Source: Isoetes taiwanensis
Lineage: Eukaryota > Streptophyta > Lycopodiopsida > Isoetales > Isoetaceae
Length of the DNA stretch: 64,000 nucleotides
Direction of reading: 5' to 3'
Assembly: GCA_021234155.1 (NCBI GenBank)
Contig: JAJEKV010000104.1
Location: 434,001-498,000, forward strand
A program made the position numbers and the translations under genes. How positions within the stretch are numbered: the stretch's first letter is position 1; every line of letters begins with the position of its first letter. The notes beneath the pieces are model-generated. The model was not told where the DNA came from, searched no databases, and saw nothing but the letters and a program-made list of their open reading frames with translations. Shown here one piece after another: positions 13,713 through 56,500 of this stretch.

Positions 13713-13733
13713 TTGGTGGATTTCTATGACTAC

Positions 13734-20555: not shown

Positions 20556-22140
20556 TCAACCAAGGCCCTCAACAAGTGTGCCCGGTGACCCCATGCATAT
20601 AGCTCGCCTTGTGATTTGTTGTTTTGCATTGCATACTGTGCCTTTCCAACCTGCAGTGACCCGTAACCCGATGGATGCATCCCAAAGGTGTGTCGTAGTA
20701 GAAAACTCAATGCCCAAATACTTATAAGATCGAGCCACCTCCACTACCGCCCCTCGGTAAGTGAATGAGGGAAGGCGTGGTGCCGGATGATGGGACCAGC
20801 AGACACCCTTGTCTTGGCCAAGTTAACTCTCATGTCGTTGAATTGGCGTAAAGTGTCCAAAGCATCCGTGTGGCGTTGCATGTCCTCACGGGGTATATGC
20901 GGCGGTGTCAACATCATCGGCATATATGAGTTGCCGGATTATGTGGTGCATCAACCGAAGCCCCCAAGTGCTTTCGGCTAGCCATTCTTCTAGCCGGTCA
21001 ATGTACAAAGCCGAAGAGCTGCCGGGGATAGAGGGCAGCCCCGGCGCACCCCAATGCTACTAACAACGGGCTCCCCGACAAATTATTGAGACGCATCGGA
21101 GCAAGCCTCGTATAGTCTCAGATATAGCATTCGCAAGTCGACGGGGTCCCTAGCCGCCTCTCAATCGTCCCACAACTTATCCCGAGGCCTTTGTGTCATA
21201 AGCCTTTGCGAAATCCACAAAGCAACAGGATGCATTCGGCCGATTCGGCTATCCTCTATGAGTGTTCGCAGAGTGAAGATATGGTCAATAGTAGAATGCC
21301 GGGGCGAAGCCCGCCACGGAGAGCCCCAAGACTTCTCCATCCTCCCGCCCAAAGTGTCAATCGCCGCCAAGAATCCCGGCAAAGCAACTTGGCAAAGACA
21401 GAATCACCATAATGGTAATGATATGGTTGGTCGGGCTATGGGGGTCCCCGCTTGTATATGGGCACAACTCTACCGGTAGTCCAAAGGCGGGGAAGCCTTC
21501 TTGCAATGCCCCGTTGAAGAGTGCCAGTGAGAACCCAAGACCATTGGGGCCCTACCCACTTGAGAAGCTCTCCTTCGCATACCATCCAAATCTGGCCGCC
21601 TTCCCTCAAGTTATGCGGCGCTGCAGCCCATTATGACATCCCCTTCAAGAATGACCGCTAGGCCCTGGTCATGGGTGTGGTATCGGTGCCCGGCTTCCCA
21701 TTGGGTCATACAAATTGCCGCAAAGTATCTCACCCATTGTTCCTGGGTAATATTTCCCTGTGGGTCAGGGGCTTACTCAAGACCTTTCTCCGTAAGGCCC
21801 TAGGGTGGCGGTCTAGAAGACCAAACATCTTCTTTGGAGTTCGCAAGGTACCGGATTTCTTGGTCTTGAGGAAGGAGCGGTATTGACAGACGGCCTCAAG
21901 GGCTTAATGGTGGGGTCCAGCACTTGGCGGAGCCATCGTTTCAGCCCCGACATTCGCCATCGAACCCGCGATTGCGGGGAAGGTGGTTGCAGCCCCCGTG
22001 GATCGCCGAGAGCTGCCTCTCCCAAAGCATCCGGCCCCTACCCTCAAAAGCGAGCCGGTTCACCGGGCCGCCTGCTGTTGAAGTGTGGGGAGTTGCAAAG
22101 ACTCCGTGACTCATGCTCAAGCATCCTCGCATAGACCGGC
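20556..22140 (-). pseudogene. LINE reverse transcriptase region (broken)
   Basis: Minus-strand pieces in several frames show reverse transcriptase landmarks. STIDHIFTLRTLIEDS (about 21255-21300) is followed by a shifted DFAKAYDTV-like stretch, then PRDKLWDD. The catalytic YADD box is at 20913-20924 (LIYADDVDTAAYTP). Then comes VARSYKYLGIEFSTTTHLWD (about 20685-20744), the usual segment after the catalytic core. Frame changes between these blocks are frequent, so no active enzyme can be made. Confidence 0.75.
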
Positions 22141-22447
22141 CGCATGATCATAGTCCAAACGCAAACCGTGGTACATGGGGTGTTGGGGCAATGGGTGCTC
22201 GGTTGGCTCCAATCTATCTGTAAGAAATGGGGCCGGATGGTCCGAGTCTACTTCCTCGCCCCTACCACTGTCCCCGGCTAATCGGGCGAGTGATCAAGTG
22301 TAGGCATTGCTCGTCTCGCTAGCACGTAATCCACCACACCGGGTGCCGCCCCCGGCTGGTTCTCTGTCTACAAGTGAAGCGGCTGGAGGACGGCCACTGT
22401 GCCAGCCCATTGCAAATGACCAGGTCAAAGATACTGCCCAGCAACAG

Positions 22448-23031
22448 CTAGCTGCCGCCATACCGTGTCACCTGGCTGTCATCTGATGCCCTTGGCCAAA
22501 CCATCTCTGCGGGGTCCATTTGCAACACATCCTCAGCTAGAGGTGCGAATTTTGGGATTTGCTCTGCCCCTGTGCGCGCATTGAAATCTCCAAGCAACAT
22601 GACCTTGCCCAATTGTCTGTACTGCTGTATGTCATCATATAGATCGACATAGGGCTCCTGCATTTCCACATCCAAGTGCGTGTGGTAAAAGTTGCTCTCA
22701 GCATGTGGGAAGTAGCAAGCCGCCACAAAGAGAGGGTCGCCATCGCCGTTTCGCACTTTCGCACTACACGTATCTCAAGTTGCCTCGTCATGCGCCTTGC
22801 ACGTGGAGACCGATTGGGCCAAGGCTGCCCGGTAGTAACACGCAATTCCTCGCGTCCTCGTTTCCCTGTGCACTCATTGAAGACGAGTAGCGGTATCCCG
22901 CAAATCGTAGCCTCGCGTGACCGGCGATGTTCCCATGTTTCCATGAGGAAGATAAGGTCCATGTCCATGGCGACGGAATTGAGATCGTCCCCCTTCTGCC
23001 ATGGAAAGCCACGGCAATTCCAGGATACCAC
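22448..23031 (-). pseudogene. LINE APE-type endonuclease domain (frameshifted)
   Basis: The N-terminal frame reads VSWNCRGFPWQKGDDLN and LIFLMETWEHR (WNCRG and E of the exonuclease-endonuclease-phosphatase fold). After a frameshift near 22750 the second frame reads YFPHAESNFY and LLGDFNARTG, the conserved GDFN motif. This is the nicking domain that starts target-primed reverse transcription in LINEs. Confidence 0.8.
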
Positions 23032-23393
23032 GCCGAGGCACGATCCCTATTTAGTGGCATGCATCGCCACTTCAGTCCGGTGGTAGTGGTGGTCCTGTGG
23101 GGAGCGTAAGATGTGGATGCTCAGGCCGGGGGCCCCCTCGAGGGGACTTGAGGGGCGGAGTGCCCGTGCATCCCCTGTTTGGTCGCACGAATTCCGCATC
23201 CTTCCCGGACCAGCCCCGCCGCCTCCATATCTGCGGCGGTCCCTCGACTTTGGCCAGCTCACGCCTTCGGGTCTCTTTGCTTTGCCGGGGTCAAGTCCCT
23301 CCAACGTCTGAGCCGCCCCTTCAACTTCCTACGGCCGCAGATGGCCACCCGCCTGGCACGCTCTCAACTGTGAAGATGACCACCCGGGGGCGA

Positions 23394-24616
23394 TCAGGGC
23401 GCTGAATTCCATGACGACTCGCCTTTCCAATGGTCACAGGTGCTGGGAACATCATCCGGTCCAAGATCTGTGGTCCGAGCTCCGAAGTGAGATGTTCTCC
23501 GACTCCTCCGCCGCCTCGCACTACCACATTGCGGCTCCCGCGTCTCTGTTCCTGGAGTTCGGCGGGGGCTGCACCAGGTGTTGGTTGAGGTGGGTGAGGC
23601 ATAGACTGTGGCCGGCGCCGGGGTGGTGGCGGCCCGGCGTGATCTGATGTGTCCGCAACATGTGTTCCAGGTTGACGTCCTGTAGGTTGGTGGGTTCGCG
23701 GGGTTGGTGTGTTTTTTTGGTTTGTGGTTTTCGTTCTCCCAGTCCGAGCTCAGCTCTTGCAGAACGTTGTCATGTCTTGCCATCTCCCTCGTGCAATGGA
23801 GGAGTTGCTCATGTGCCTCGGCATGGAGGCCCTTGCCTTGCTGGGCAACGGCCGCCCGAAGCTCCTGTAGCTCCCGATCTCGTGCTAAATCCTTACTCCG
23901 AAGAGCGCTCAGTTCTGCCTGGCTAGCTTCCAAAGCAACCTGGAATCCTTGTCTCACAGTGGCGGCCTCCGCAACCTCTGATAGGAGGGCGTCCTGTGCT
24001 CCTCGTGCCATGGCCTTAGCCTCCTCAACCTCGGCCTGGATCCGAGACAGGGTTACGAGTGTCTCCTGCTCTACCCGGTTCCTGTCCTGCGTCCCAGCTT
24101 CCATAGCTGCCAACACGGTGTCTACACGCCCCCTCATATCTGCAAGCTCCTGCTGGTATTGCTGTCTGTCAAATTGTAGCAAGTGGATGCTATCATCCGC
24201 CATGCAGCGATCCTCCAATTACGTGATTCGTCATTTTTTACCGCACCAACCGCCGCACAACATCCGAGATGTTATGTTCTCCACCTCTGTCGCCGAGGCT
24301 CGCAAAGGCGTGCACCGCTGGCCTCAACCCTCGCTTGATGCGGCTCCAAAGGTTCGGACCGGGCGGATTGCCTGTGGGGCCCGCCGGCCGTCGACCGGGC
24401 CTTGGCTCGGGCCTCCCTCTTCATGGAAGACGCCTCTCCCTCTGCCCGAGGCCTCTTCCTTGGTGGCCCCGCTTCATGGTCTTCCCCAGAGGGCTCTGCC
24501 TGCGTGGGGTCAACCGGTGGTTGGTGTGTTTGGGCCTTCCCAGGATGGGTTAGTGTGGTCTGAGGTAGCTCACCAACCAAGTGTGGGTCCACACACGGAC
24601 CGTGGTCTGTGGCCAT
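23394..24616 (-). pseudogene. LINE ORF1-type coiled-coil protein
   Basis: Two frames. The first (24616-24272) starts MATDHGPCVDPHLVGEL and holds a basic nuclear-localisation-like PPRKRPRAEGE. The second (24218-23394) is a long coiled coil (LQFDRQQYQQELADMRGRVD, RIQAEVEEAKAMARGAQDA, ALRSKDLARDRELQELRA). ORF1 proteins bind LINE RNA and often form coiled-coil multimers. The frames are separated by about 50 bases with a stop, so the protein is broken. No RRM or zinc knuckle was recognised. Confidence 0.6.
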
Positions 24617-24667
24617 GACTTGGGGTATGACTTGGGCTTACGACTCCCGGATATCCGGTGTGTACCG

Positions 24668-25020
24668 CCGCCACAAAACCCTAGCACACAGCCCGGAAAA
24701 GTGCAGATTTGAGCACTGAAATAAAGACAAGCATGCAGGTATCATACACCATTGGAAAGCTCTCTGAATCAGCTTTCCAACAAGCCCAAGCACATAAAAA
24801 TCTGACACAGGATGTGAGAGATACAGTCCGTCGAAGTGTCTACCGATTGCCACAGAAACCCTAGAAGACAGCCCGGAAAAGTGCCAATTTGAGCACAGAA
24901 ACAAAGCCAAGCATGCAGGTACCATAACTATTGGAAAGATCTCTGAACCAGCTTTCCAACAAGCCCAAGCACATGAAAATCTGACACCGGATGCGAGAGA
25001 TATGACCGATCAAAATTCTG
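24668..25020. repeat. Hairpin-bearing repeat, units 1 and 2
   Basis: Two head-to-tail units of about 170-185 bp, each running from CACAGCCCGGAAAAGTGC to GATGTGAGAGATA. Each has an internal inverted repeat TTGGAAAGCT..AGCTTTCCAA. Unit 1 has a perfect 10-bp stem with a 9-base loop; unit 2 has one mismatch (AAAGAT). Confidence 0.8.
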
Positions 25021-25237
25021 CCGCAAGACGAGACCAATCGAATACTTACTAAAACATACGCCAATCCCTATATTGGTGTCGGACTTTCATCAACAACACT
25101 ATCAGGAACTAGGGTATGAATTAGTAAAACATTCTCGTAACCTTCAATAAGAGTACAACACACACCTTTCAACACCGCGTGGCCAAGGCCAACAACGGCA
25201 TCAGGCGAGGGCTATACTTCTCAAAGAAGGAAGAAGA

Positions 25238-25597
25238 AGGGCTGCCACAAAAACCCTAGCACACAGCCCGGAAAACAGCAGATTTGAGCACTGAAACAAA
25301 GACAAGCATGCAGGTATCATACACCGTTGGAAAGCTCTCTGAACCAGCTTTCCAACAAGCCCAAGCACATGAAAATCTGACACCGGATGTGAGAGATACA
25401 GTCCGTCGAAGTGTCTACCAGTTGCCACAGAAACCCTAGCACACAGCCCGGAAACGTGCCAATTTGAGCACAGAAACAAAGCCAAGCATGCAGGTACCAT
25501 ACCCGGTTGGAAAGATCTCTGAACCAGCTTTCCAACAAGCCCAAACACATGAAAATCTGACACCGGATGTGAGAGATATGACCGATCAAAATTCTGC
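25238..25597. repeat. Hairpin-bearing repeat, units 3 and 4
   Basis: A second pair of the same units about 220 bp downstream. Unit 3 matches unit 1 (perfect stem) and unit 4 matches unit 2 (mismatch stem). So the two-unit block duplicated as a dimer. GATCAAAATTCTGCCGC follows both unit 2 and unit 4, and recurs in part at 25650. Confidence 0.8.
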
Positions 25598-27900
25598 CGC
25601 CTTCAGAGAGTAAGGATGGCGCCTACCAGAGAGGAAGGAGAGTGATGAAAATTCTGCCGCCTTCAGAGAGTAAGAAGAGCCACAACTATAATGATAGATC
25701 ATCGTTATCCTAGCTACAACAATTGGTGACCTTCATAAATTCATAGCCTGGATGAAACCTAGAGCTTTTGAATTTGATGCAGATCCTTCTGGCTCTTTTG
25801 TTGTGCAATTAGTGTTGTTGCCGGATGATCTCAATGTTCTCAGATGCTATAGAGTAGACATTCTTTGTTTTACGTTACAATATCCCTTGCACCCTTAGCT
25901 TTTTGGACAATATGCTACATTACGAGGATTTCTCTTAAAACTTGCCCAACGTGTGCACCTATTTGGTCGAGGTTGGTTACACCTAAACAATTGCTATATG
26001 TGATGATGCCAGTGTAGAGACACTGGCATCTTATCCCTACACTGGCATCTTATGTTCAGGAGGTATCATGCGAGCTCAATTGTGTCCCTGATCACTACAC
26101 TGACACTTACAAATGTATAGTTCATCAGCAAGCTTATTATTGCTAAGGATTTTTCCCTCAAAAACCCTTTGGGGTTTGTTTGTTTGGCCTATGGTGGGGT
26201 GGGGTTTGTTTGTTTGGGTCCCATAGGCCACCCTTTCTTCAATCCAATTTATGCAAATCAATTTTGATTTTCTATTATGATTGTGTTCTTTGCAATTTAA
26301 AGTTGGGCTGTTGTGAATGCAAGTTGTTGACTACTCACGTCTTGAGTTTACAGTGCTAGGGTGTCTTCATTGAAAAAGAGACTTATGTTTTGTGCAACCT
26401 GATCAAGCATATCCATTGTTGTAATGTTAGGAAACGGTCTTTTATCGTATCATGATGCAACAAGAGAGAGCAAGTTCTTTGGGCAACTGATGCAAATGTT
26501 AGAGCAAACATTCTAAATTTTTTGTTAGGTGAACCATTTGTCTAGTGTTGATCTTTGCTATCTATAATTACTTGGTAAGTTGAATACAAACCATCATCCC
26601 GCTAATAGTTATGATGCTATATTGATTGAACAAAAAAATAAATGTAATGCTTATTAAATGCCAACCAGAAACTTGTTGGATGGTTTACAATAGTGAAGAA
26701 GTTGATATGTCGTATCTAATGTGCTACACAATAGATTCCTGTAGCGTAAACTTACCCACAATATATCAGAAGAACAATACAAATAATTGGGCTATACAAG
26801 CATTATATTGAATGCCATAGCAGCACATATAAAGGAGACTGTGATGTGTAATGTGCAGACCTTATACGACATTCTACAATGCCCTAGAATGTGTCTCCAA
26901 TAGTAGAAAGTCCTAGACATTGTAGAATGTGCTATCATGTCTTAGAAAGTATCTAAAAATAACAACTTTGCGAGTAAGCACGCTTGGAACTGTCATGCAC
27001 CTAATAGAAGAGGAAGAAGAAAAAAACTAAAAAACTCGCCATTGTGGACAAAGCTCCTAACATAAGAAACCCTGCTCTTCAATTATCCTCCTTTATGCTA
27101 GCCCCATACTCTAAAAGCACCAGTCAAACTTGCACCATGGGATTGGCATAATTCCAACATCTTGAGGGTTGATTGTAGGAAACTATAACAAATTGAAAAC
27201 TCATTGTTGCATGGTCTTTCATGACACACGCCTGCCTTATTTTCATAGGAAGGTGGGCTACGGATAGATACAATTGAGGCAACGCATGTGCTAGACATAT
27301 ATGAGTGACAGTAAGCATGTAGTGACCTTACGTTATAAGAGCAAACATAAATGTAGTCAAGTTCCTTTTTTCCACTACAAATGCCTCACAAATTCATTTT
27401 CCAGCAAAGCATAAGTACTTTCTTCTACAAAAAATTGTGGGGGTCTTGGGATGATTCATTTTCTTCTACAAAAAGTAAGGTGAATATCTTTAAGTTTATA
27501 TCGATGATCTTTATCCTTACAGAGGTGCATTTCCGTTGGCTCTCCATCCTTTAAGGCTCTCTTTCAATGGGCTCTCTTCTCAGGGGACTACTTAGTGCAT
27601 TAGATATTGTGCATATTTTGTTCTATTTTCATCCTATTGTCCGCAAGAACCCTACATCTAGGTGTTGTTAGATTCCTTTAGATGATACTCTGACATAATC
27701 CACTGATGCCCTCTATCTATCCATTGACTATGACTTGCCCTCTCTGGATGCAGCAGGACGAGACAGTTGAGTATTATTTATTTTTTATGTTCGCATGTTA
27801 GACTGTTTGGCAGAAGCTTCTAGGCATCTTCAATTGTAATTTGGATAGTCAACATGTCTTACTGGCATTTTATCCAAGTTTTGGTCTAGGCTGGCAGAAA
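25598..27900. other. 2.3-kb interval without recognised gene
   Basis: One plus-strand stretch at about 25747-25895 reads MKPRAFEFDADPSGSFVV, QLVLLPDDLNVLRCY before a stop; it looks protein-like but I cannot assign it. TTTGTTTGTTTGG is doubled near 26185-26215. Otherwise nothing. Confidence 0.4.
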
Positions 27901-31308: not shown

Positions 31309-31698
31309 CTCCTCCTTCAACTCATAAGCCTGCATTCCTGGTTTTACCAATACCTTCAACTTTGCCTTAAATCCATTGAATTTACTTGTAGACAGAGCCT
31401 TGGTAAAAATATCCGCAACTTGATGATTAGTATCCAAATAAAGCATCTCTATTACTTTTCTTTCTGCCAAGTCCCTTATGAAATGGATGCTTAGTTCTAT
31501 GTGCTTGGTTCTATCATGCTGAACATGATTTTTCACTATGGCTGTGCAACTTTGGCTATCTGTCCATATTATTGTGGGACCTGTTTGTTCACAACCTAGT
31601 TCATCCATCAATCTTCTTAGCCATACGATTTCTTTTGCTACAAGTGAGGATGCAGCATACTCTGCTTCTACAGAACTCATTGCTATAGCTGTTTGCAT
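31306..31698 (-). CDS. Copia RNase H C-terminal part (frame-shifted)
   Basis: Reads AMSSVEAEYAASSLVAKEI, WTDSQSCTAIVKNHVQHDR, TKHIELSIHFIRDL and HQVADIFTKALS, the second half of Copia RNase H (catalytic E in SxEAEY, D in TDSQS). It overlaps the end of the main frame by a few bases in another frame. The TGA stop is the first three bases of the 3' LTR, directly after the purine tract GAAGGAGGAG. Confidence 0.9.
   Translation of the reverse strand: MQTAIAMSSVEAEYAASSLVAKEIVWLRRLMDELGCEQTGPTIIWTDSQSCTAIVKNHVQHDRTKHIELSIHFIRDLAERKVIEMLYLDTNHQVADIFTKALSTSKFNGFKAKLKVLVKPGMQAYELKEE
31309..31318 (-). other. Copia polypurine tract
   Basis: GAAGGAGGAG on the element strand, directly abutting the 3' LTR. 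Confidence 0.9.
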
Positions 31699-34600
31699 CT
31701 CCAGGTAATCACTCCTCCACCAAAGAAAATAGCATATCCCGAGGTTGATCTTCTAGTAGAGAGATCATCTCCCCAATCTGCATCATTGAAACATGACATA
31801 GTCAAGTCTCCTGAGTCATAGCATATTCCTTGATTTTGAGTACCCTTCAAATACTTCAACACACGTTTAGCAGCCTCCCAATGTTCATGTGTAGCATCAT
31901 GGTTTCTTCTACTCAAAATATTTACTGCATAAGCAATATCAGGTCGAGTGCTATTTGCTAAATAAAGTAAACAACCAATCAAAGCTCGATAGGGTACATT
32001 TTCCATCTTTGCAATATCCTCATCAGTGGTCTGCTGGATATCAGTCAATCTATGTCCTGGGATCATAGGTATTTTAGCAGGTTTGGCCTCAACCAAGTTA
32101 AACCTTTTAAGCATATTCTCTATATGCTTTGCTTGATGCAATTTGAGCCATTTTTCATCCTTATTTCTGACCACCTCGATCCCCAAAAATTTCCTTAGTT
32201 CCCCTAAGTCAGTCATTTGAAACCTGGACTTTAAAATGCCTTTGCATTTGTTTAGAATGTTCAGTGAGGTTGCCACCATGATACAATCATCTACATAAAG
32301 GGCAATGATACAATATTCTTTGTTTTGTTCCAATCTGTAAAGGTTACCATCATTATGTAGTTTGTTAAAGCCTTGTTCTTGCAAAAACTGATTTATGCAG
32401 AGGTACCATTCCCTTGGTGACTGCTTCAGTCCATACATTGCTTTATTTAGTTTCCAGATCATGTTTTTACCTTGTTCATAACCTGGGGGTTGCCTTAGAT
32501 ATGCTTCCTCTTCTAATGTTGCATTTAAAAATGCTGTTTTAACATCCATGTGATGTATGTCCAGTTTCATTGCATTAGCCATGGCCAACAATATTCTGAT
32601 GCTTGTCAATTTAACCAGTGGAGAATAAGTTTCATCATAATCTCTTCCCTTCTTCTGTGTATAGCCCTGTGCCACCAACCTAGCTTTAAATTTCTTTGTT
32701 CCATCTGGATTTAATTTAATTCTGAACAACCATTTGATGCCAATGATATTGTGCTTACCATTTGACTTTACAAGTTCATATGTTTTAGTGTCCTCAAACG
32801 ACTTGAGCTCATCATTCATAGCTGCTATCCACTTATCTCTATCACTGCTTTCTTGTACATCTTCATAACTTTGGGGAATTATCTCATCTTCTAGTATTGC
32901 CATGATGTATTCATGTTCAACTGTCTTTGCTTCAATTCTTCTACTTCTTCCCCTTTCATTTCTGCCATAATTGTGTTCTTCCAGTCTAGCTTCTTCTACA
33001 AGTCTTTCTGCCTGGGTTTTCCTTTTCTTCTTTTCATGATGTTCCTTGGGAGGCTCAACACTTGATTGACTTGCATCTGAAATGTCTTCAGAGCTTGGTG
33101 TTTCCATCTCACTAGTTTCTTTTGATATTTCTGGAATTTCTAATTCATCATAATCCTCTTCTTCAAATTCCACCTTTGGAGTTTGTTCAGGTTTATCTGG
33201 CTGGATTTTGGTGCCTTTCTTGAATTTATGTTTGTATAGCACTTCTTCATTAAATAATACATCCCTACTAATTCTGATTTCCTTGGTCTCAGGCAAATAG
33301 ATTCTGTACCCTTTAGATTCTTTGTCATATCCTACCAAAAACCCTCTTTCTGCCCTGTTATCTAATTTTTTTCTTAGTTCAGATGGCACATGCACATAGG
33401 CCAGACACCCATATACCTTGAACTTTTCATAGTTTAGCTTCTTTTCTGAATCCCATAGCAGCATAGGGATATTTCCTTGTAGGCTTACTGATGGAAGCAT
33501 ATTCTGGATTTCAACAGCAGTATACAGTGCTTCTTCCCATAGATAGTTAGGCAAGCCACTTTCTTTTAACATTGATCTAACAGCATCTAATAAGGTTCTA
33601 TTCTTTCTTTCTGACACTCCATTCTGCTGAGGTGAGTGTCTGCATGTTAATTGTCTCTTGATTCCATGTGATATGCAAAATGATTTGAATTGACCTGAAA
33701 GATATTCTCCTCCTCTATCTGATCTAATGCATTTTACTTTGACACCTGTTTCTCGTTCTTTTTCTGCAACATATTGCTTGAATGCATTTATGGCTTGTGA
33801 CTTCCTGGTTAAACAATATGTGGTGCACATTCTGCTGTAATCATCAGTGAAAGTAATGAAATATCTCTTATTTGTTCTGCTTTTGACATTTAAAGGGCCA
33901 CATAAATCTGAATGTATCAGCTCAAGTTTTTGTTGTGCTCTAGTTTTCCTTTTATGAAATGGCAGCCTGCTTAATTTACCCAAGGCACATCCCTCACATA
34001 TAAGATCTTGTCTAGTTTCATTTTCAAGGCTGATGTGACCTTGCTTGTATAGAGATTCTAATTTTTTATAATTGGTGTGGGCAAGTCTATTATGCCAAGT
34101 ATCGACCCCAACTTCCTGAACTGCATTAATAGAATGATGAACACTATTTTCCAATCCATACAAGTTTCCCACACGTTTGCCATAGAACTTTATTTCATTA
34201 TCCTTCATAATATTGCACTGATCTGTATCAAATACAACTTTATATCCCAAATCACACAACTGACTAACTGATATTAAATTTTTGATAATTCCAGGCACAC
34301 ACAAAACATTCTGGATATTTATAACATTTCCAGCCAAATCTGTTAACTGCAATAATCCTCTTCCTTGAACATCTTGGAGAGCTCCATTTCCCACTTGAAT
34401 TTTCCTTGAACTTGCACTGGTTATATTCTTCAAAAGATCAATATTTTGTACTATTGATCTTTCAGCTCCACTATCAACTATCAAGTGATCAGAATTGTTA
34501 GTTGGCATACTCTCATTAACAATTGCAAATTCATGAGATACCTCATCCTCATCTTCTTCATTTGCCTTGTCTTCTTGTTCTCTTGCCACATAGGCCTTTT

Positions 34601-35531
34601 CAGCACCACGTCCTCTGCCACCTCTTATATGCCTGGCTTCACCTCTGCCTCTTGTAGATCTACCATAGGTTTTAGGTGTAGGACATTTTGAGGCTGCATG
34701 TCCTCTGCCACCACATGTGTAGCAATTGAAATCCTTTTCAAATTTTGGGCATTCATTCTTATAATGACCTTTCTCATGGCAATTATAGCATATCACTTTA
34801 TCTTTTTTCTTAAGCAATAGAATTTCTGGAGTTTCATCTGATTGACTCTGCCTTAGTATCTTTTTCTGCTCCCACTCAGTTCTTAATATATTTTCTGCCT
34901 CTTCTCTTGATTTGCATGAATTTCTTATGAATAAGGCCAAGGTCTCATTTTCACCAATTGCCCTAGATATTTGCAACACTTGACTTCTTTCAGAAATGAC
35001 CACTCCTGCTCCATTTAGGTCAGCAATGAGATTATCAAACTTATTGAAGAATTCTGTTACATCCTCCTCTTCTTTAAGTTTCAAACCCCTTAATTCATTC
35101 TCAAGAAGATCAATTTGTGAGGATGTCTTTTCCTCATAGTGTTTCAGTAAAAACTTCCACATCTCTCTAGGACTTAATGACCTTAATTTCAAGCGTATAG
35201 TTGGACTAACCTTGCATGTGATGATGCCTTGTGCTTCCCTTGTTTTGGCGAGCAATGATTTGCCTCCTGTTCCAGATGCTCCAGCACCTGCTCCTGCATC
35301 TTTTGAAGCTTCAGTCCCTGCTGCAGCCTTCTCTGCTGCTCCAACAACAGAACTTGAGGAACCAGTTCTGGTAAGTACTCCTGTACCTACTGTTCCTGCT
35401 GGATCTACCAGCTCCCAAAGGTCCTCCACCTCAAGTATGTGTGCTATAGCATCTTTCCATACTTGGAAACCTGGACCTCCCTTGTATACATCCACAGTAT
35501 TCAACAGTGATGCACCAAATCTGCTAGACAT
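31683..35531 (-). CDS. Copia gag-pol polyprotein
   Basis: I start at the ATG at 35531 (MSSRFGASLLNTVDVYKG) because the longer frame begins inside the LTR and crosses the primer site. About 1,282 residues. Gag with an UBN2-like core, then two zinc knuckles (CYNCHEKGHYKNEC and CYTCGGRGHAASKC, about 34690-34790). Protease LIVDSGAERS (about 34460-34485). Integrase HHCC finger (HNRLAH, CEGCALGK) and DDE core (FTDDYSR, SDRGGEY, QQNGVSERKNR). Reverse transcriptase (YSPLVKLTSIRILLA, YGLKQSPREWY, YVDD at 32287-32298). RNase H starts with DADWGDDLSTRRSTSGYA and stops after ITWRCKQL because the frame shifts. All catalytic residues looked for are present. Confidence 0.95.
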   Translation of the reverse strand: MSSRFGASLLNTVDVYKGGPGFQVWKDAIAHILEVEDLWELVDPAGTVGTGVLTRTGSSSSVVGAAEKAAAGTEASKDAGAGAGASGTGGKSLLAKTREAQGIITCKVSPTIRLKLRSLSPREMWKFLLKHYEEKTSSQIDLLENELRGLKLKEEEDVTEFFNKFDNLIADLNGAGVVISERSQVLQISRAIGENETLALFIRNSCKSREEAENILRTEWEQKKILRQSQSDETPEILLLKKKDKVICYNCHEKGHYKNECPKFEKDFNCYTCGGRGHAASKCPTPKTYGRSTRGRGEARHIRGGRGRGAEKAYVAREQEDKANEEDEDEVSHEFAIVNESMPTNNSDHLIVDSGAERSIVQNIDLLKNITSASSRKIQVGNGALQDVQGRGLLQLTDLAGNVINIQNVLCVPGIIKNLISVSQLCDLGYKVVFDTDQCNIMKDNEIKFYGKRVGNLYGLENSVHHSINAVQEVGVDTWHNRLAHTNYKKLESLYKQGHISLENETRQDLICEGCALGKLSRLPFHKRKTRAQQKLELIHSDLCGPLNVKSRTNKRYFITFTDDYSRMCTTYCLTRKSQAINAFKQYVAEKERETGVKVKCIRSDRGGEYLSGQFKSFCISHGIKRQLTCRHSPQQNGVSERKNRTLLDAVRSMLKESGLPNYLWEEALYTAVEIQNMLPSVSLQGNIPMLLWDSEKKLNYEKFKVYGCLAYVHVPSELRKKLDNRAERGFLVGYDKESKGYRIYLPETKEIRISRDVLFNEEVLYKHKFKKGTKIQPDKPEQTPKVEFEEEDYDELEIPEISKETSEMETPSSEDISDASQSSVEPPKEHHEKKKRKTQAERLVEEARLEEHNYGRNERGRSRRIEAKTVEHEYIMAILEDEIIPQSYEDVQESSDRDKWIAAMNDELKSFEDTKTYELVKSNGKHNIIGIKWLFRIKLNPDGTKKFKARLVAQGYTQKKGRDYDETYSPLVKLTSIRILLAMANAMKLDIHHMDVKTAFLNATLEEEAYLRQPPGYEQGKNMIWKLNKAMYGLKQSPREWYLCINQFLQEQGFNKLHNDGNLYRLEQNKEYCIIALYVDDCIMVATSLNILNKCKGILKSRFQMTDLGELRKFLGIEVVRNKDEKWLKLHQAKHIENMLKRFNLVEAKPAKIPMIPGHRLTDIQQTTDEDIAKMENVPYRALIGCLLYLANSTRPDIAYAVNILSRRNHDATHEHWEAAKRVLKYLKGTQNQGICYDSGDLTMSCFNDADWGDDLSTRRSTSGYAIFFGGGVITWRCKQL

Positions 35532-35539
35532 GTTGAATA

Positions 35540-35551
35540 GCTCTGATACCA
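35540..35551 (-). other. Copia primer-binding site
   Basis: TGGTATCAGAGC on the element strand, one base inside the 5' LTR, complementary to the end of initiator tRNA-Met. Confidence 0.9.
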
Positions 35552-35552
35552 C

Positions 35553-36405
35553 TGATGGTTTTTCAAGATAATGCACACAACAATAATGCACACTCAAATG
35601 TCTAGCAAGATTTGCAACTATAATAGAGTTACAATAATGGTCTAGAGAAAAGCCACAATATGGTCACTAATTTTCTCTAGAACATGTACTCAATATCTTT
35701 GTTCAAATTTCTAGAAATCATTCTAGAAACACCTATGGTCAATATAATGATTGTCAATAATAATAATGAACTATTCAACCATAGGAATACTGTAGCAATA
35801 ATTCACTGTTCCTCGGGTATTGACCAAGTAACTGTAGCATAGTTGACTCCGGCCATTTGCGGATCTTCGGTGCTAATACGATCTCCTCCTGCCGTCTACG
35901 CCAGCCATTAAGCGTTCTCAAAGATATATACATCACTCCGACGGTTATGGGACTTCTAATCTAAGTTTTCCAATCCGTCCACAATATCCCACAGGACAAG
36001 TTCATGAAATGAGTTGTGTTCCAATATCCCACAGGACAAACAGTGCAAACGAGCTTTTCGACCATTGAATCAAATTTTCCTTAATAGATAATGTTCATAT
36101 TAATATTTCAATCAATGTCTTACCCTTGGTGATGAACTTGAGTATCAAACAACTTGGTAAGCTCCTGTCTCATTTGCACATTTAGATTAGGTCATGGTCT
36201 GTAAGGTAACCTACTGCCACTGCTTCTCATAGGTACATTAGGCAGACAACTTGTGATCATGTTGATCTACACTACTGCCACTGCTTCTCATAGTTAGATC
36301 ACACAAATGATAGCCATCTTCACATGATAACCTTGTACTCAAATAACATTATTGTTTGTATGTACTGACCTGAATCTTGCAGGGTTATGAGATGAATTTC
36401 CATCA
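35553..36405 (-). repeat. Copia 5' LTR (853 bp)
   Basis: Partner of 30456-31308. Differences seen by eye: GATGG for GATCG at the edge, AATGGTC for AATGATC, GAGTTG for GAGCTG, GATCACAC for GATCATAC. Confidence 0.97.
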
Positions 36406-46940: not shown

Positions 46941-47103
46941 CCTTTTTTTTTCAATGATCAACAACCAATGGCTCACAACAAAAGCCCTTTTTTTTGTGCG
47001 TGTGTGCATAATGGTCAACAACTAATGGCTCATAACAAAAGCCCTCTTTTTGTGTGTGTGGTGCATAATGGGCACATGAAGGGCTTGAAAACCAATGGCT
47101 CAC
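46941..47103. repeat. Minisatellite array, left of the large transposon
   Basis: Repeated modules of CCAATGGCTCACAACAAAAG, CCCTTTTTTTGTGTGTG and GTGCATAATGGGCACATGAA in a short array. It breaks off after GGCTCAC at 47103 and resumes with TCACAACAAAAG at 56360. Confidence 0.8.
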
Positions 47104-47125
47104 GGGTAAAAGCATGAAAGGGTGT
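47104..47125 (+). repeat. Left terminal inverted repeat
   Basis: Begins GGGTAAAAGCATGAAAGG; identical over 22 bases to the reverse complement of 56338-56359. Confidence 0.9.
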
Positions 47126-48639
47126 CTATAAATGTAGCCCTTTTTGTACATATACATATGTACCGAATGCACATTTTTGGAATAACTGTCATCATGACCA
47201 GCTAGTAACTGCCATGATTAATGGCTATCCACTACTCTGAACCCGCAATTATCGGATTTTGAAATTCTTTCCCAAATTCTTTCTTGGTTTGCCTCTCGTT
47301 CACTATCCCGCCCCTGCCTTCTCTGGCTTGATTCCGATCACGAATTCTTCATCTAGCTATGGCCCCAAAACGCCCCCGGATGAGTGCTTGCTCATCACCA
47401 CGTTAAAGCAAGATGCCGTGCTTCCGGCGGTGGAATTTTACCTCCAAGGAGTTTACGTTTGGGTTACGAGGTGATCCAAGCCAAAGACCTCCGTGAGAAA
47501 CATCACATGAGGCCCACATACCCAACCTAGAGATGGTTATGAACGAGGTATGGGGTGAAGCTCCAAAAACGTGCAGGCGAGGATTCAAGGAAGGAGAATC
47601 CGAACGCATGGAAAGATGATTTTTTTAAATATTATGAATTGGTTTATGGCAAGAAACGTGTTACAAACCATTATATTTCAACCTATTTTGCCGAGCATTT
47701 GCTCTTCACTTGAAGGGACGGCTTGTTGATTGGATGGACGTGGCTAGGACCGCCAAAGATCTTGCCAAAACCCTCGGTTCGGGGCGTTACGGAGGACCCT
47801 ACAAATGGTAAATCCTCAACTATCAAACAGGACATCGTATTGCGGCCAGAATATTAGAGCCACAGGTTATTCTAGATCGATGTTGACACAATAAAGCGCT
47901 TACTTAAGCATGGGTTGGAGGAGAAAACTAACCTATTGAATGAAGTAGAAGCCTTTGAAGAAAAAGGAGGGATGCATTGAAGGTCATCAGCCGGATTGAG
48001 GGTAGAAAGGATATGCTATCCAAGATCTGCAGCGGATCTGCCAGAAAAATAGATGAGACAAAAACAGAATTTGACAAATTGTCCCGTGATCCTGCTGGAA
48101 ATGTTTGTTATGTTCGGAGTGTTGAAGTACAAGTTGGAAGACTTGGTTATGAGTAGACATGATAAAGAACAACACTCTTCTAAGCTAGAAATTGGTTTGC
48201 GGAAGCAACTAAAGACATTGAAAGGCATGAAATCTCAATTGAACAAGCAAAGGAAAAACTTAATTGCATTGAATTGGTTCGGAAAGGCATTCCACAGATT
48301 TTGGATTTCATGGGGAGAGCAGGACCTATTGTTCTCGCACCCGAGGCCCCACCCCTCGTAGGAGCTACTTCTATAGAGCAGTTCATCACATTCGGTTCAT
48401 GTACTGTTGTGGCCAAGGCTTTGGCAAAACGGTTTGTTGTTGCTAGCTCCATGCGAGATGCTTATTGCCTCTTACGCTTGTGTTATCTGGTCCATGAAAG
48501 ACAAATTGCATAAAGGTTGCATCCGGGATGAGGGCATTCAATTCACTTGGTTTCCCTGGCAGGAAAGGTATGCATTGCTCTCAACTAATTTAAACTTATA
48601 TTTCTCTTCATTCATATTTGTTATTGTAATCTGCATAGT

Positions 48640-49090
48640 TCTACATGTATGGCTTTCAGTGCATTGCTATTCCTTGTACATGTATAACTTTTAGTGTACA
48701 TCTGTAAGCAGAGGTACATAGGCATATATTTGCTTGTTTATTGATGCTTTTATTTTTGAGCTTGGACTGCAGTTGTATCAGTTGTACATGTCTCTAATGG
48801 AGTCTACATCTGCAAATAGATGTACATGCATTTATCTTTAGAGTGCATCTGTAGATGGATTCATAAGTATGTGCATTTTTTACATATATGTGCTTTTTTT
48901 TGGCATAGATCTACATTCCCTAACTGGATACCTGGGTACATCTGGGTACATCAGTGTACATCTGGGTACATTGATGTACCTTTATGTACATTGAGGAACA
49001 TGTACATGTACATTTGGCTATAGTTAAATGTAGTTACTTACATTTGGTACATTCTATGTACATGAAATGTACATGCTTGGCAGGATGTAC
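48640..49090. repeat. TGTACAT cluster 1 (intronic)
   Basis: More than a dozen copies of TGTACAT or GTACATCTG in 450 bp, including CTGGGTACATCTGGGTACAT. It lies in an apparent intron of the plus-strand gene. Similar clusters occur only within the transposon and near its right end. Confidence 0.75.
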
Positions 49091-51297
49091 CATATATTTC
49101 TCATTAGTTCTTTTTCATGTTCTTTTTATGTCTATTGAAATTTAGATCATTTGTTTGTTTGCGATGAGGTCGTTCCTATCCCGTAGCGGCTTTAATGGTG
49201 ATGTTCTTGAGCCATCTGCATCGACTCTCTTTACTGATTTTACTTGAGCATAATAAGCAAACCGAATCAGAGACCCTCTACCTTCCAGCTCCGGATCACC
49301 AATGACATTTTCGGTGCGGTAATAGAACAATGCGGTGTGATGCTTTCGAACATGGCAAAGTGAAGTTGAGGAAATTGAGAGGATGGCACTTGAGAAAGCT
49401 AAAGCGGTGCGGTCTGCAGAGCCTTCAATGATGGCCGCAATGAGAAAATCTTTCATCACCAAGTGCTAAATTAGTAATTGGAGAAGCTAAGAAAGATTCG
49501 ACACGCCTCGGCATCATCTGCGGGTCCCGTTCGGGACCTCAATTATGAAGCTACAAAGGACCGCAGATCCAGATTTTAACCCAGGAGATACCAGGGAAGA
49601 GGAAGCTGAGTTGGTAGTTGAGTCCACTCCAAAGAGGAGGCAAAAGAATGCTGGTGATGGCACTCCAAAAGGAAAAAAACAGGCAAAATCTCCAGCAACA
49701 AAAAAATGTCCTCCGAAAAGAAAATCTCCAGGCAAAAAAGTGCCACCACCACCTAGAAAGAGGTATGTCCAAGATGAACTAATTTTGTTAAACATCTCAG
49801 ATTTATGGTAATTAACCACATTTTTTTTGTACATAGGACACGATCACAGGCCGTGAAGGAAGCTGATCCTGATCCTTCTGAGTCGGAACCGGAAGAGGAA
49901 GAGGATCTACAAGCAAATATTGATGTGATAACAAATAAGGTGCAGCAGTCCTCAGAAGATGCTGAAACAGGTGATGAATTTACAAGGTGAGTAATATACA
50001 ATTGATTACAATAGATATATTCTTTTGCTAATGCTGTTGTTTCCTTGTACAGTTTAGTGAACCGACTGAAAAGGTTGGTTCCATTCACTCCTTATAGGGA
50101 CTGTCCTCCTAAGCCTGCACCCTCTATCTTTCAAAGTGATGTTGACGAGTTCTTCTGGAAGCTGGACTTGACCTCTAAGATGGTAGATGTCTATGGGAGG
50201 TAGGCTAGCATTTCAACATATTTATGTTATTTCATTCCCTAAGTCACTCATCTTATGTATTAATATGTAATCTGGATTTGTGTGCAGGTACCTTTGTAGC
50301 GGTCTTCCATCTGATTGGAAACACAAGTTTTTTATGGTTCGACCGACACCTTCGAATTTTGTGAATTCCCTCAAGAACAGGGGGGGGATGCACAGAACAC
50401 TAACATAAAGGAAGGGCTGGATGGCATTTTGATTGCAAGATGCCAATACATATTTGTTCCAATTCTGCAAGGCCCAAATGTGGCATTGGCAATACTTGTG
50501 CTTGCTGGTCCAATGAAAAGCTCTTTTCCATCTATAGCTAGCCCAAGTATCTGAGATCCTCTCTCTGTCAAAGGCTATGTACCCGATGCTAAAGTGGTCC
50601 GTAAAGTATGAGTTTCGTTTTGTTTTTATGATTTGATTATTCTCATATTGCAATTTCTTATGCTTGATTTATTCTCACATTGCAATTTTGCGGGTTTCAT
50701 AAGCTTGTGATCAATAACATGATGCTCGGATCCAACGGCTTAAACCATGGTAGGAAGAACTTTGATGCTCCCCGTGTTACGTCCTAAAATGCGAGGAAAC
50801 TAGTACCGGCAACCCTTGCATGTACATTGTGGCTTACATGCACAAATTCATAGATGCCGTGGTTGATGCACACCAAGCTCCATTTTTGTAAGTAGAACAT
50901 GTTATTTTCCTATTAGTTATTTGTTGGTATAGTCCTCTAATACTTGTGCACCATGCGGATGACACCCGGTTGGTTCACATCATGCCTATGCCAAGTCACG
51001 GAGGATCATCTAATGGAGGCATTAATTGTAGAAGGCGAGATGAATATACAAGCGGTTGTTCCTACGGGGTAGATAGTTCCTTTGACTTGTTTGTAAATTA
51101 CAGTTTTTATATGAGCCATGCTCCGAGCTTCTTTGTACTCAATAAGTAATGAAAAATTAATTTATTTGTCTCACTTACACACCGTGCAAATAACAATCGT
51201 GTAATTATCAATGTGTTTTCTCAATTGTGTGTCCGAAATGTAATTATAAATTGTGAATCTCAAGTGTTTTCTTGCTGACAGTGAATCATCTAATTCA

Positions 51298-51823
51298 GGA
51301 GAAAGCTCGTTATCTTTGACTTAAATTACGTGTTGGGCAAGAGTGTGCACAAGAATGAAAATATTAACTCAAGATACCAACAGATCGAGAAAGATGAGCT
51401 TCAATTTAATATAGGAAACGGGTTTTTTTTTTTGCGCAGGCCGGGGTTAGCATCACTTTGTTAGCATTTGTAAGAGAAGGGTTTGATGTTGTCATCTGGT
51501 CTTCACTCACTTCTAAAAATCTTCAACCAATTGTGGAACATATTTGTGATGCTTTTTCCATAAAGTCAAGTTTGTTTACAGCCCGAGAGCGGTGTTGGAC
51601 TCTGCCACACAAACACCCTCTTGAACCTCAAAAGGGGTTGTTTGTGAAACCATTAAACGTGGTATGGAAAGAGTACCCCAGTACTATGGACATACTGATT
51701 CGATCGACGACGAAAAGATACAAATCCACTTTGAATCACGTAGGAAGCTACATATGTCCTTTCTCTTGGACACCGATATTAGCTAGTGACATTGCTTGTC
51801 ATGGAGCTCATTCCATGGCTTAA
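51298..51823 (+). pseudogene. FCP1/TIM50-like HAD phosphatase region
   Basis: Within the plus-strand transposon gene. KLVIFDLNYVLGKSV aligns with the nucleophile segment of the family (DLDxTL), here DLNYVL. A further exon from about 51440 reads LLAFVREGFDVVIWSSLTSK, NLQPIVEH, CWTLPHKHPLEPQKGLFVK and PLNVVWKEYP, as in plant FCP1-domain proteins (VVWTS, K.LFLKDLxKVW). The segment expected to hold the LIDDSP acidic motif is out of frame. These enzymes dephosphorylate serine in RNA polymerase II tails or act in protein import; this copy should be inactive. Confidence 0.6.
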
Positions 51824-52080
51824 TGGATTCAAAATGGCGAAGATGGTATAGTTTATGTGAAAGAGCATCCAATGACTAATGCGGCAGATGGCATATCGTC
51901 GAAAGGTGGAACAGATTTTGGCGGCAAACTATGGCAAAGAATTTGGGTGCTTTCACGCCTAAATTTAGTCAATATACGGAGCAAGGAATGGAGAAACTGC
52001 CATCATGTTATTGGCCTCTCGACTGGCCCATTGTTGGTACAGACTTTGACTGATGTACAAATTCAAATGTTATGAATATA

Positions 52081-53312
52081 TGTATCAAAGTTTTTGTTCA
52101 TTGCACTTGAGTACTCTATTCTTACTGTCTTTCTTATTGGTACAATTATGAGTGTGTATACATAATTAAGTGATCTTCATTTGCTTTGTAGATGAATGGA
52201 CCAAAACACAAAAGACTATTAAGAAACTAAGAGATAGAGTTCTGCTGCACCCGGAGAGGTAATACAAACCAACACAAGCCGCAAGTACATAGGGTTGGGG
52301 ACCGATTATCGCCTCTATCTTTCTTGTTCTCGAACTTTGGGAAAAGGTTGAGCAAATTGAAAATTATGAGGAACGAGCAACCATGAAAGGTATATTGGCA
52401 AAGAAATCACTTGTTGCACAACCCTTGGGGAAGGCACGTGTCCCGGAAGATGCAAAGGTGTAGGATGGAAAGGTTTGCCGCTGGCACGTGCTATAGAAAC
52501 CGCATGGACTATTTGCTTTAGAGGATATCTCTTCACCTCTCTGGGGCCGGAAGACATGATGCAATAGTCATAAGATATCGGGCTCCTACCGACATTTTGA
52601 AGCTTGGTCATGAATTATGAGCCATGCTCATTTTTGGGTGTGTTATATTTATGTCCACAATATAAATATATCAACCATTTGTACATGAAAACCTGCCCAT
52701 TTCTTATCTTTGCCATGACCGAAACCATTTTAGTGTTTATGCAATTCAACTTTCTTGTGTTCAATTCTAATCAACTTACACTTAACAAATTTTTATAAGA
52801 TTTCTGAATGTACAAATGGATGTACATAAGATGTACATCTGTTGTACATCTTATGTACATTGATGTACATAATGCACTTCTTAGTCGAGTAGTCCAGTTC
52901 TTTCTTTATAACAAAGTATTACAATATTTCAGAAAGTACTACAGATCGACTTAGTCCATGTCATCTACAATTCTTTGGAAGTTGTGATAACAATGTCTCA
53001 TGGACTTCATCCGCAAGTGAAATGTCTGTGGCTTGCCCCTTCACTTGTGTTTTACTTTCTTGAATGGGATTCAACCCCAATCACAGATTCTGCAGTACCA
53101 AAACATTCTTAGTAGGAAGCGGTTTATACTTATTGTGGCAGCCCGATTAGTTCATAATATTGTCCTTCAATGACACTAGTGCCAGCCAGAGTATTCATTT
53201 CCATAGTCATCAATTGAATCTTCTTCCAATGCATGCTTTTCCCTCGGTGCACATGAGAACATAGTATGAAACACCTTCCACATTGTGCGTGCTTAAAAGA
53301 CACAAATACATC
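52081..53312. other. Region between the two convergent transposon genes
   Basis: Includes a decayed plus-strand coding stretch (52190-52260, DEWTKTQKTIKKLRDR), a second TGTACAT cluster (52806-52872) and nothing else assignable. Confidence 0.4.
52806..52872. repeat. TGTACAT cluster 2
   Basis: Six TGTACAT-type motifs in 67 bp, partly palindromic (GATGTACATCTGTTGTACATC). Confidence 0.7.
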
Positions 53313-56042
53313 CTAAAAGCATTTCGGATTGTCATCTAAACCAGCCTCGTCCTCTGCATACAAAACTTCCACATCATTTTCAGCTTCAACACGAGAGGCA
53401 ATATGATCTGTGGGCTCCAAACTTTTTAGAGACCATTCTCCACAATGTTTAATGTTCTCACAATTCAACCAATTGAAGTTAATGCAAGCATCACAAAAGC
53501 ACGAGAGTGGTCTGCATAGCAACTTTGTTGGATCTGCTGGGTTTATAGTTGACCACGTAATGTATCTCTTGAGTACCGGGTAAAGTCTTGCAATTGAATG
53601 CTTGCTGCCTGTTCACATCTGTTTTTCCAACCTCCCAAAACACCCTTTCACAATCCGATTCCTTGGCCCTTAAAACTGCACAAGCTGTTTCTGCACCTGT
53701 CACTGGCATGCCATTTTGTTTTCTCTGCTCGCTCTCAAGCCACAACTTTGCTATACCAGCCTCGCCATCATGTGTGCCTTTCCCATGGCCAGATCCAAAG
53801 AAATTCCATATCACTCGAATTTTATTTTCAACATGGTATCTACAGATTCCATACCATGTACGTGCAGATTTGAATTGAGATGCACAACCATCCGACCACA
53901 CATAATGAAGGTTTATGTGTCCACCTCCATTATTCTTAAGCCACCCCAAATGTAATTTAAAACCATGTTGCACAAAATGAGTGTCATGCTTCCTCATCAT
54001 CCAAACATAGAAATGCACTGTTTTTTTAAGCTTACCTTCTATTTTCATCATTGAAATATGGACCAAAATACTAATTTGATCAGGATTCCAATGCTCGGAT
54101 TGCACTTCTGTCCCTGGTTTCAATGTGTAGTTCTCTGCAAAGTCAACAACAGACAACACACTATTATCCGGGAGTTTCTCAACACATCTTTTAAACTGTT
54201 TGCTCTGCCCGATTAGGTGTCTTTGTAAAGTTATGATCTCAGAACTTAGCAAGCTGATTTTTCATGTTCTTTAACAAAAAACAGTGCTTTGTCATTCTGA
54301 TCAACTAATCTAAGCCTTCGGATGTACCTTTTTGGATGGCTCATTGACATATGCATATACTTGCCACCACATTCTCAATTCCATCTTCCTCGTTTGGACA
54401 GGATGTCTAATTTCTTCACTCCACATTCATCACATTAAGCCTTTGATGCATTTTAGTTTATGCCATTCATCCGTCACATATTTCTCGCAAAACTGTTGAC
54501 CTCCACAAGATACTAACATTATCAAAAGTTTTCTTGTTTGCTTGACATACTCCATTGTTTTGCTTTGGGATGCATGACACTTCTGACCGCAAGTGCAATT
54601 AACATGTAGGGATCTCCTCATATCATTGAAGGCCTTTTAATACAGATGACCGCTTGCTCATGTTTGACACAACAACATGTGTTTCTCTCCTTCAATTTCC
54701 TTATGCAATCGGGTTTTGGATACTTTAACCGTCGGCGAATTTTGGTATCAGGATTCTGATATACAAACTGTTGATAAAGCTCAGACTGCAATAACAAAAG
54801 CATTAAAGACCATGTTAGCAAAATGATGTCGGCAACCAGATGCCAAAAGAGTATTGAACTATACTATTGTACAATTAATGTATGTTCTATGTACATAAAA
54901 TGTCCATCCAACAGTTCCAATCGATGCATTCTCGTACATCTAATGTACATCTAATGTACAGCAGTACATCTAATGTACAGCCAACAGTTCCACTGAACAT
55001 CCAATGTACATCCAATGTACATCTAATTAATGTTCCAATATTAGTACATCACATTAATGTTACAATATTAGTACAACTAATGTACATATGTCTGATTTGT
55101 TTGGCTTCATTACCTGAAAGTACACTAAAATGTAGAATGATGTAATTTTGATATTCAAGTACATGTAAATGCAAAATGCATGGACATGTAATCATAATGG
55201 ATGTACATCTAAAAAGTACCTAATAGCACATCACCGCAAGATTTCTGCTACTATGTAAACAATGTAAAATGCAATACATTTCATGAGAACCATGTGTATT
55301 CATTAACGTGTCACTTTCGAACGTAACTAGAATGTCTGAGAATAAAGTCATGAAAGAATTTTGGAAGAAAACATAAACTCCAAGACCTGAATTGATTCAA
55401 TTACAAGAGCAAACCTGTGAGATATCAAGGTATTGTATTGCTTGTGTTCTCCTCTTCATGACATCTCTAACCTTTGGTGAAACTTTGGTATTGTCAAGCC
55501 AAAATTCACGAAACGACATTTTGATTGAATCATCGATTCTATTTGATCTTGGCATCCTTCCCGCCAAAGCCCATACATTTGCTCCACTTAATGACATTAT
55601 CTTCCTTCTTCTTTGCAGCTTTGGATAAATTTCTTGGTCGTGTATCTTTAGCAATTTTGAAGAAACATTCTTGTTTATATCTCCTTTTTTCCAACAATCA
55701 TTGATAACGGTGAATGTTTTGCGACCAATTTATCTTTGCTATTAGCGGACTTTACTTCTTGAAGTCCATCTTTCAAGTTTTTTTATCATTGATTTCATAA
55801 CAATAACTTCGGAAGGATTTCCAATTACAGTTCGAAAACGAGAAAAAAGCCCGTCATCTTGCAACAAACGAATCACAAAAACTAATCTTTGATCACGGAC
55901 CAAGCGTTTGCCCGAAGAATCGAGGATGCAATCCACCGACATCAACCAACACGCTTCTTTATTTGTTTTGTGGCATAACACCGCCAATGTCGGCATACTT
56001 GCGCTTAGAACCATCACTTCCATTGGAATTCTCACCCTCCAT
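53313..56042 (-). pseudogene. DFAENY-type transposase-like gene
   Basis: A start reads MEGENSNGSDGSKRKYADIG at 56042. Decayed N-terminal exons follow, including KIAKDTRPRNLSKAAKKK (about 55600-55660). A cysteine-rich part (54821-54430: CCCVKHEQA, CTCGQKCHASQ) precedes the long intact frame 54252-53491. That frame has VVDFAENYTLKPGTEVQSEH (D at 54144), VWSDGCASQFKSA (D at 53892) and FFGSGHGKGTHDGEAG (D/E near 53765). This D, D, D/E order with conserved surroundings fits an RNase H-fold transposase core; similar hypothetical proteins are widespread in eukaryotes. After a frameshift near 53515 the C-terminus continues RPLSCFCDACINFNW. Several frameshifts make it inactive. The superfamily name is left open. 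Confidence 0.7.
54870..55215. repeat. TGTACAT cluster 3
   Basis: About ten copies of AATGTACATC and related strings, with CTAATGTACATCTAATGTAC, in an apparent intron of the minus-strand gene. Confidence 0.75.
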
Positions 56043-56337
56043 GAACAGATTGAAATTGATTTGTATTTCTTGTAGATTCAATTGGCATGTGTTTGCTTCT
56101 GGAATTCCTTCGGTGTTCGTCCTGTGAAAGGGGGGAATTTCGGAAAGGGAGGGACGGATCCATTCAATTTGGTTCGGTGGTTCGGTGGTTAACCAAGAAT
56201 TTCGGGGGGAATGTCAGGGATGATCTTGCAATCATTGCATATCTGACACAAAACGACAAACCATAGTATCTTGATGTACATCTAAAATGTACCCCAAAAA
56301 AGCACAAATTCGTCCTTCAATTCAGTACGATGTACGT

Positions 56338-56359
56338 ACACCCTTTCATGCTTTTACCC
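56338..56359 (-). repeat. Right terminal inverted repeat
   Basis: Reverse complement begins GGGTAAAAGCATGAAAGG; the next bases (ACGTACATCGTAC) add further GTAC motifs. TCAC follows. Confidence 0.9.
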
Positions 56360-56500
56360 TCACAACAAAAGCCCTATTTTTGTGTGTGTGGTGCATAATG
56401 GTCAACAACCAATGGCTCACAACAAAAGTCCTCTTTTTTTGTGTGTGGTGCATAATGGGCACATGAAGGGCTTGAAGGGCGCATGTAGTGCAGTTTCCCC
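56360..56500. repeat. Minisatellite array, right of the large transposon
   Basis: Continues the array of 46941-47103: CACAACAAAAGCCC, TTTTGTGTGTGTGGTGCATA, ACCAATGGCTCAC, ending GGGCACATGAAGGGCTTGAA. Confidence 0.8.

Follow-up and report, generated by a model that had tools for sequence, protein, structure and literature searches.

A probable Sola-like DNA transposon with a second, NIF-domain gene in the quillwort Isoetes taiwanensis

The element and its target site

A 64,000-nt stretch of DNA from the quillwort Isoetes taiwanensis, here called the window and used for all position numbers, contains a complete DNA transposon of 9,256 bp at 47104-56359. The element is a two-gene DNA transposon with perfect 22-bp terminal inverted repeats (TIRs), a 4-bp target-site duplication (TSD) and no match to a Pfam transposase family. 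Its transposase gene and second gene face each other, and its features are as follows (aa, amino acids).

46947..47103, no strand: left portion of the target, a minisatellite with a 57-bp unit, which resumes at 56360-56476
47100..47103, no strand: left TSD copy, TCAC
47104..47125, plus strand: left 22-bp TIR, perfect; the exact 22-mer counted genome-wide
~47359..52620, plus strand: second gene, convergent to the transposase gene; extent approximate, exons and frames by eye
~48380..48540, plus strand: weak RING-like cysteine region (copy L040 against the finger of a related lineage, C623)
50040..50890, plus strand: Ulp1/SENP-like stretch, unproven (SENP7, E=0.36)
51300..52050, plus strand: NIF (NLI-interacting-factor/FCP1-like) phosphatase domain, with D-L-N replacing D-x-D
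53316..56042, minus strand: transposase gene in several frames, read through in nine pieces; relatives found
53491..54261, minus strand: 256-aa open frame, putative catalytic core, with D40 (54142-54144), D124 (53890-53892) and D165 (53767-53769)
55414-54786, minus strand: likely intron of the transposase gene, GT...AG, by eye
56338..56359, minus strand: right 22-bp TIR, perfect
56360..56363, no strand: right TSD copy, TCAC

With up to three mismatches allowed, the TIR sequence, GGGTAAAAGCATGAAAGGGTGT, matches the window at two places, the two ends themselves, and matches none of 100 shuffled windows. The two flanks belong to a single 57-bp minisatellite, whose unit thus reveals the appearance of the empty site. 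The original prediction, made from the letters of the window, had described exact boundaries with 22-bp TIRs, TCAC on both sides and a minisatellite unit restored by removal of the element, and each of these points holds. Short tandem repeats rich in GTACAT lie at 54934-55087, 48926-48994 and 52808-52871, where the element is intron-like or intergenic.

The transposase gene

The motif series DFAENY / SDGCASQFK / HGKGTHDGE, described at first as part of a transposase-like gene, lies within the 256-aa minus-strand frame. Of 2,188 candidates in a protein search with the transposase, 42 are relatives at E<=0.001, and a profile search returned 57 among 7,999 scored. Named relatives come from Klebsormidium nitens, Ceratodon purpureus, Calypogeia fissa and Taxus chinensis, with more distant ones in Rotaria, Mytilus, Myxine and Callosobruchus. 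In a tree of 28 aligned rows, a group of 19, consisting of all streptophyte rows and nine others, is split from the animal rows with a support of 100/100.

Across the same alignment D40 is kept in 27 of 28 rows and both D124 and D165 in all 28. Since the glutamate of HGKGTHDGE is present in few rows, the third acid is more likely an aspartate, and the conserved D-D-D presumably forms the catalytic triad of a DDD-type transposase.

The original prediction had proposed a Pfam search of this gene; neither the 256-aa core nor a 702-aa reading of the transposase has a family there at E<=10. A search of the PDB with the transposase profile gave 14 rows (best E=0.013), none of them by name a transposase or RNase H. 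When viral contigs were searched with the profile, 12 pattern stretches turned up, and by tblastn none of these was a relative.

The second gene

As read by eye, the second gene comprises, in order, a coiled-coil-like part, a RING-like region, a basic linker, the Ulp1-like stretch, the NIF domain and a C-terminal exon. The match to the NIF domain is significant. Pfam NIF (PF03031) scores 21.9 bits against a cut-off of 21.8 on the window's own frame (E=1.5e-4), and 42.3 bits on a merged reading of the gene (E=7.9e-11). The closest solved chain among NIF/FCP1-like phosphatases is UBLCP1 (3shq), at E=0.058 for the window gene and E=3.7e-4 for the corresponding gene of the C623 lineage, described below. 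The C623 gene also matches the NCBIfam model HAD_IIID1 at E=6.6e-7, far below the cut-off of that model.

Active NIF/HAD phosphatases carry D-x-D as motif I. In the window family this motif is D-L-N in all 11 copies compared and in C623 it is D-V-N, so neither has the D-x-D of the active enzymes; the domain is probably a modified NIF domain of D-x-N type. Its setting is another difference from known NIF phosphatases, since it is part of a transposon gene that also has coiled-coil-like and RING-like regions.

The cysteine region of copy L040 matches the RING-like finger of C623 weakly (E=0.003 in a comparison of 27 sequences). The fingers of C623 and of a third lineage, C1026, match each other at E ~1e-4; with Pfam RING models they give E=0.0014 and 0.0045, both below the cut-offs. 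The finger of related loci matches RLIM at E=0.013, and no Pfam RING model matched the N-terminal part of the second gene as merged for the window family.

A protease domain was considered and rejected. Ulp1/C48 proteases carry a His-Asp-Cys triad, and two short motif-like stretches of the window gene, downstream of the coiled-coil-like part recognized by eye, stand in the same order as in SENP7. The match to SENP7 is not significant (E=0.36), no Pfam family is found there, Peptidase_C48 included, and the residues aligned to the His-Trp pair are N-V. Of the protease-like and phosphatase-like regions first ascribed to this convergent gene, the phosphatase domain is significant and the protease is unproven.

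Copies in the host genome

The host genome as searched comprises 1,658,258,908 bp in 1,110 contigs. A genome search with the TIR, suggested at the outset as a way to find further copies, revealed 388 + 408 = 796 exact occurrences of the 22-mer, as opposed to 0 + 0 for the reversed pattern. Searches with the left 497 bp and the right 500 bp of the element gave 586 and 581 first-look candidates, respectively; the 40 scored in each search are 95-100% identical.

Among the first 100 places listed, 25 facing TIR pairs were counted by eye: 13 span 9.1-9.8 kb, 10 span 252-265 bp and 2 are longer. All ten short pairs were read (L049-L058) and are miniature inverted-repeat transposable elements (MITEs) of ~260 bp with the element's ends. 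They match 37-49 bp of its left end and 45-76 bp of its right end at 80-97% identity, which suggests that the element also mobilises MITEs. Two of the ten, L053 and L058, are inverted relative to the others.

Flanks were compared in 33 copies: the window copy, the 10 MITEs, 13 full-size copies via their two ends and nine whole copies. One further copy, L041, was excluded as one of its ends is cut off. An identical 4-bp flank is present in 30 of the 33 and an identical 5-bp flank in none, which bears out the 4-bp duplication that the proposed flank alignment was meant to reveal. The three copies without it are L049, L079/L080 and L045. At position 1 of the TSD, 26 of 30 cases have an A or a T; positions 2-4 are mixed.

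Pairing of transposase and NIF genes in related lineages

Two further transposase lineages occur in the same genome, the C623/C570 type and the C1026 type (L087, L099). The former has open transposase frames of 631 and 612 aa, 36% and 34% identical to the window transposase. In C623 a 249-aa open frame faces the transposase from 3.7 kb beyond it and matches Pfam NIF at E=3.6e-12 (46.7 bits). A genome search with this frame yielded 4,698 candidates, of which 150 matches were scored.

Pairing was assessed between 97 transposase places and 147 NIF places, after three secondary rows had been dropped from each list; the lists are top-scoring subsets and no census. Fifteen of the listed NIF places have a transposase of the list within 15 kb, where 0.26 would be expected under random placement. 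Thirteen of these pairs are convergent (12 within 5.4 kb, one at 14.6 kb), one is divergent and one is on the same strand. Clustering of transposons could raise the expectation of 0.26 but could not explain the bias in orientation. No listed transposase is present within 15 kb of the other 132 listed NIF places.

A search with a C1026-type query scored 138 places, and 57 of the 97 listed transposase places are also in that list (compared by eye); the 13 convergent pairs all come from the remaining 40. In sequence pieces from one C1026-type locus tblastn found no NIF domain; a RING-like frame at this locus faces the transposase. A search for TIRs and TSDs in twelve related loci of ~3.7 kb gave no convincing ends.

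These distributions bear on the main rival to an accessory role, which is that the second gene was captured from the host and is carried passively, with no part in transposition. DNA transposons are known to capture host genes, NIF is a host-type domain, and the listed places of the C1026 type lack it. The domain is nevertheless present in both the window family and C623 despite transposases that are only 36% identical, and the listed pairs are overwhelmingly convergent. NIF frames are moreover stop-free at five places of the listed pairs (C623, C919, C1103, C1087 and C1035; 227-249 aa) and at three places within 10 kb of a right end of the window family (255-276 aa). As a second lineage also has a NIF domain facing its transposase, the second gene probably did not end up in the element by chance, and the passive reading appears less likely.

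Classification

According to a published review, Sola elements have a DDD transposase, 4-bp TSDs and TIRs of 11-1124 bp, and measure mostly 2-9 kb and in some cases more than 15 kb (PMC10741241). The review counts Sola among the plant superfamilies, known from moss and uncommon in flowering plants (PMC10741241), and the records include Physcomitrella Sola1, Azolla Sola and Ceratopteris Sola. The window family agrees with this description in its 4-bp TSD, in three conserved aspartates with a presumed catalytic role, and in the length of its TIRs and of the element. Carrying an extra gene likewise has a parallel, a dictyostelid Sola2 element with Fanzor1 (excerpts of PMC3627910). A NIF/RING-like second gene is absent from the excerpted Sola descriptions, and the TSDs of dictyostelid Sola2 (AWWT, ATAT, AAAT and ATTT) are AT-rich, unlike those of the window family (PMC3627910, in part).

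The first impression was that the element fits no common plant superfamily and that Sola-like was the best guess. With the Pfam transposase models of MULE, hAT, CACTA, PIF/Harbinger and Tc1/mariner there are indeed no matches, either for the 256-aa core or for the 702-aa reading. Sola itself, on the other hand, is already listed among plant superfamilies, with moss and fern records. The guess stands at the level of published traits and not of homology to a named Sola protein; Sola-like is accordingly the best available label.

The element might instead belong to another superfamily with 4-bp TSDs, such as Ginger or Chapaev-type EnSpm/CACTA, or to a new one. Ginger and Chapaev both make 4-bp duplications, the window transposase was placed by its traits, and Pfam offers it no family. 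A Ginger transposase would, however, be expected to match Pfam rve, as a copia frame elsewhere in the window does, and the 256-aa core does not. The combination of a DDD transposase with a 4-bp TSD is published for Sola (PMC10741241), and a placement outside it is unlikely.

Literature titles on Sola in plants, lycophytes or Isoetes, and titles on accessory phosphatase, Ulp1 or RING genes or on NIF with a transposase, include none describing such an element. A review of giant transposons (PMC6431247) contains no occurrence of Sola, phosphatase, Ulp1 or C48.

Age and state of the copies

Eleven full-size copies were aligned and differences were counted from the column majority. Each differs at 2.9-4.0% of positions and has 94-144 indel events. 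The longest open frame among them is 285 aa, so that no copy, as assembled, has a full-length transposase frame. This, together with the truncation of L041 at one end, could be taken to mean that the family, the window copy included, has decayed to fossils.

The distribution of the differences argues otherwise. Within 5 bp of CG/CHG sites there are 5.2% substitutions and 40 indels/kb, versus 0.93% and 8.9 indels/kb elsewhere, with the caveat that misalignment next to indels inflates the substitution counts. Transition and transversion rates lie in the range 0.033-0.043 per site and copy at CG/CHG and 0.005-0.009 elsewhere; for transversions the ranges are 0.033-0.035 and 0.005-0.007. Deamination yields transitions only. 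As transversions also crowd at CG/CHG, the likelier source of these differences, judging from the assembled sequence, is that nanopore sequencing miscalls sites that are methylated in a repeat with many copies. The assembly is described as based on nanopore R9.4.1 reads polished with racon and pilon (PMC8566536). Decay of the family into fossils is thus improbable, and the window copy may be less broken than its assembled sequence implies. Away from CG/CHG, pairwise divergence averages 1.5% (0.9-2.0%, 55 pairs), from which the spread of the family appears to be recent.

Interpretation

The locus is best explained, at a probability of roughly 0.72, as one member of a recently amplified family of Sola-like DNA transposons that move by cut-and-paste, with an accessory gene conserved in some lineages. 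A DDD transposase, presumably of RNase H type and equipped with cysteine clusters, would bind the 22-bp TIRs, excise the element and insert it at target sites cut with a stagger of 4 bp. This enzyme would probably also move the ~260-bp MITEs that share the element's ends. The second protein would act as a nuclear accessory whose RING-like region and modified D-x-N NIF domain work on host transcription, ubiquitin or silencing factors to the benefit of the element. A nuclear accessory protein of this kind is the most likely role for the second gene, and is proposed tentatively.

Several observations weigh against this explanation. The list of 138 C1026-type places has a single listed NIF within 15 kb, in divergent orientation; with this lineage nearly devoid of nearby listed NIF genes, the accessory gene is not universal. 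The ends of the C623 element were not found in the surrounding 15.2 kb. A protein search with the whole hand-merged second gene gave none of 6,112 candidates at E<=0.01, possibly because the query is too faulty. The D-x-N motif may imply that the domain has no phosphatase activity. The AT-rich TSDs of dictyostelid Sola2 are not seen here, A/T prevailing only at position 1 (26/30), although such TSDs may not define all Sola2. Likeness to Sola was also judged from partial descriptions and not from named Sola sequences.

A broader view is conceivable, if short of an even chance. Seed-free plants may host an undescribed Sola-like clade in which a DDD transposase converges with a coiled-coil/RING-like/NIF D-x-N protein. 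This protein would be a dedicated factor, related to anti-silencing, ubiquitin or the C-terminal domain of RNA polymerase II, kept over deep divergence. The quillwort family would then be active, or very recently so, and would drive its own MITEs.

The family offers a well-bounded, young, multi-copy plant example of a superfamily little described in plants. Its MITEs provide material for assays, and its second gene may encode a new accessory protein. A further caution is that, where nanopore assemblies contain methylated elements in many copies, broken frames can reflect errors and not decay.

Other features of the window

On the minus strand, 31683-35663 holds an open frame of 1,326 aa for a Ty1/copia polyprotein, in which Pfam identifies domains of gag, integrase and reverse transcriptase, and 10749-13733 holds a 994-aa open frame with PPR repeats by Pfam. 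Amylase-like and cysteine-synthase-like pieces were seen by eye in the latter and are not listed by Pfam; the frame is possibly a chimeric gene. A GC-rich island at 20001-26000 reaches 0.50-0.59, compared with 0.38-0.40 in the adjoining 2-kb steps, and contains two 180-bp tandem-repeat arrays, at 24670 and 25243.

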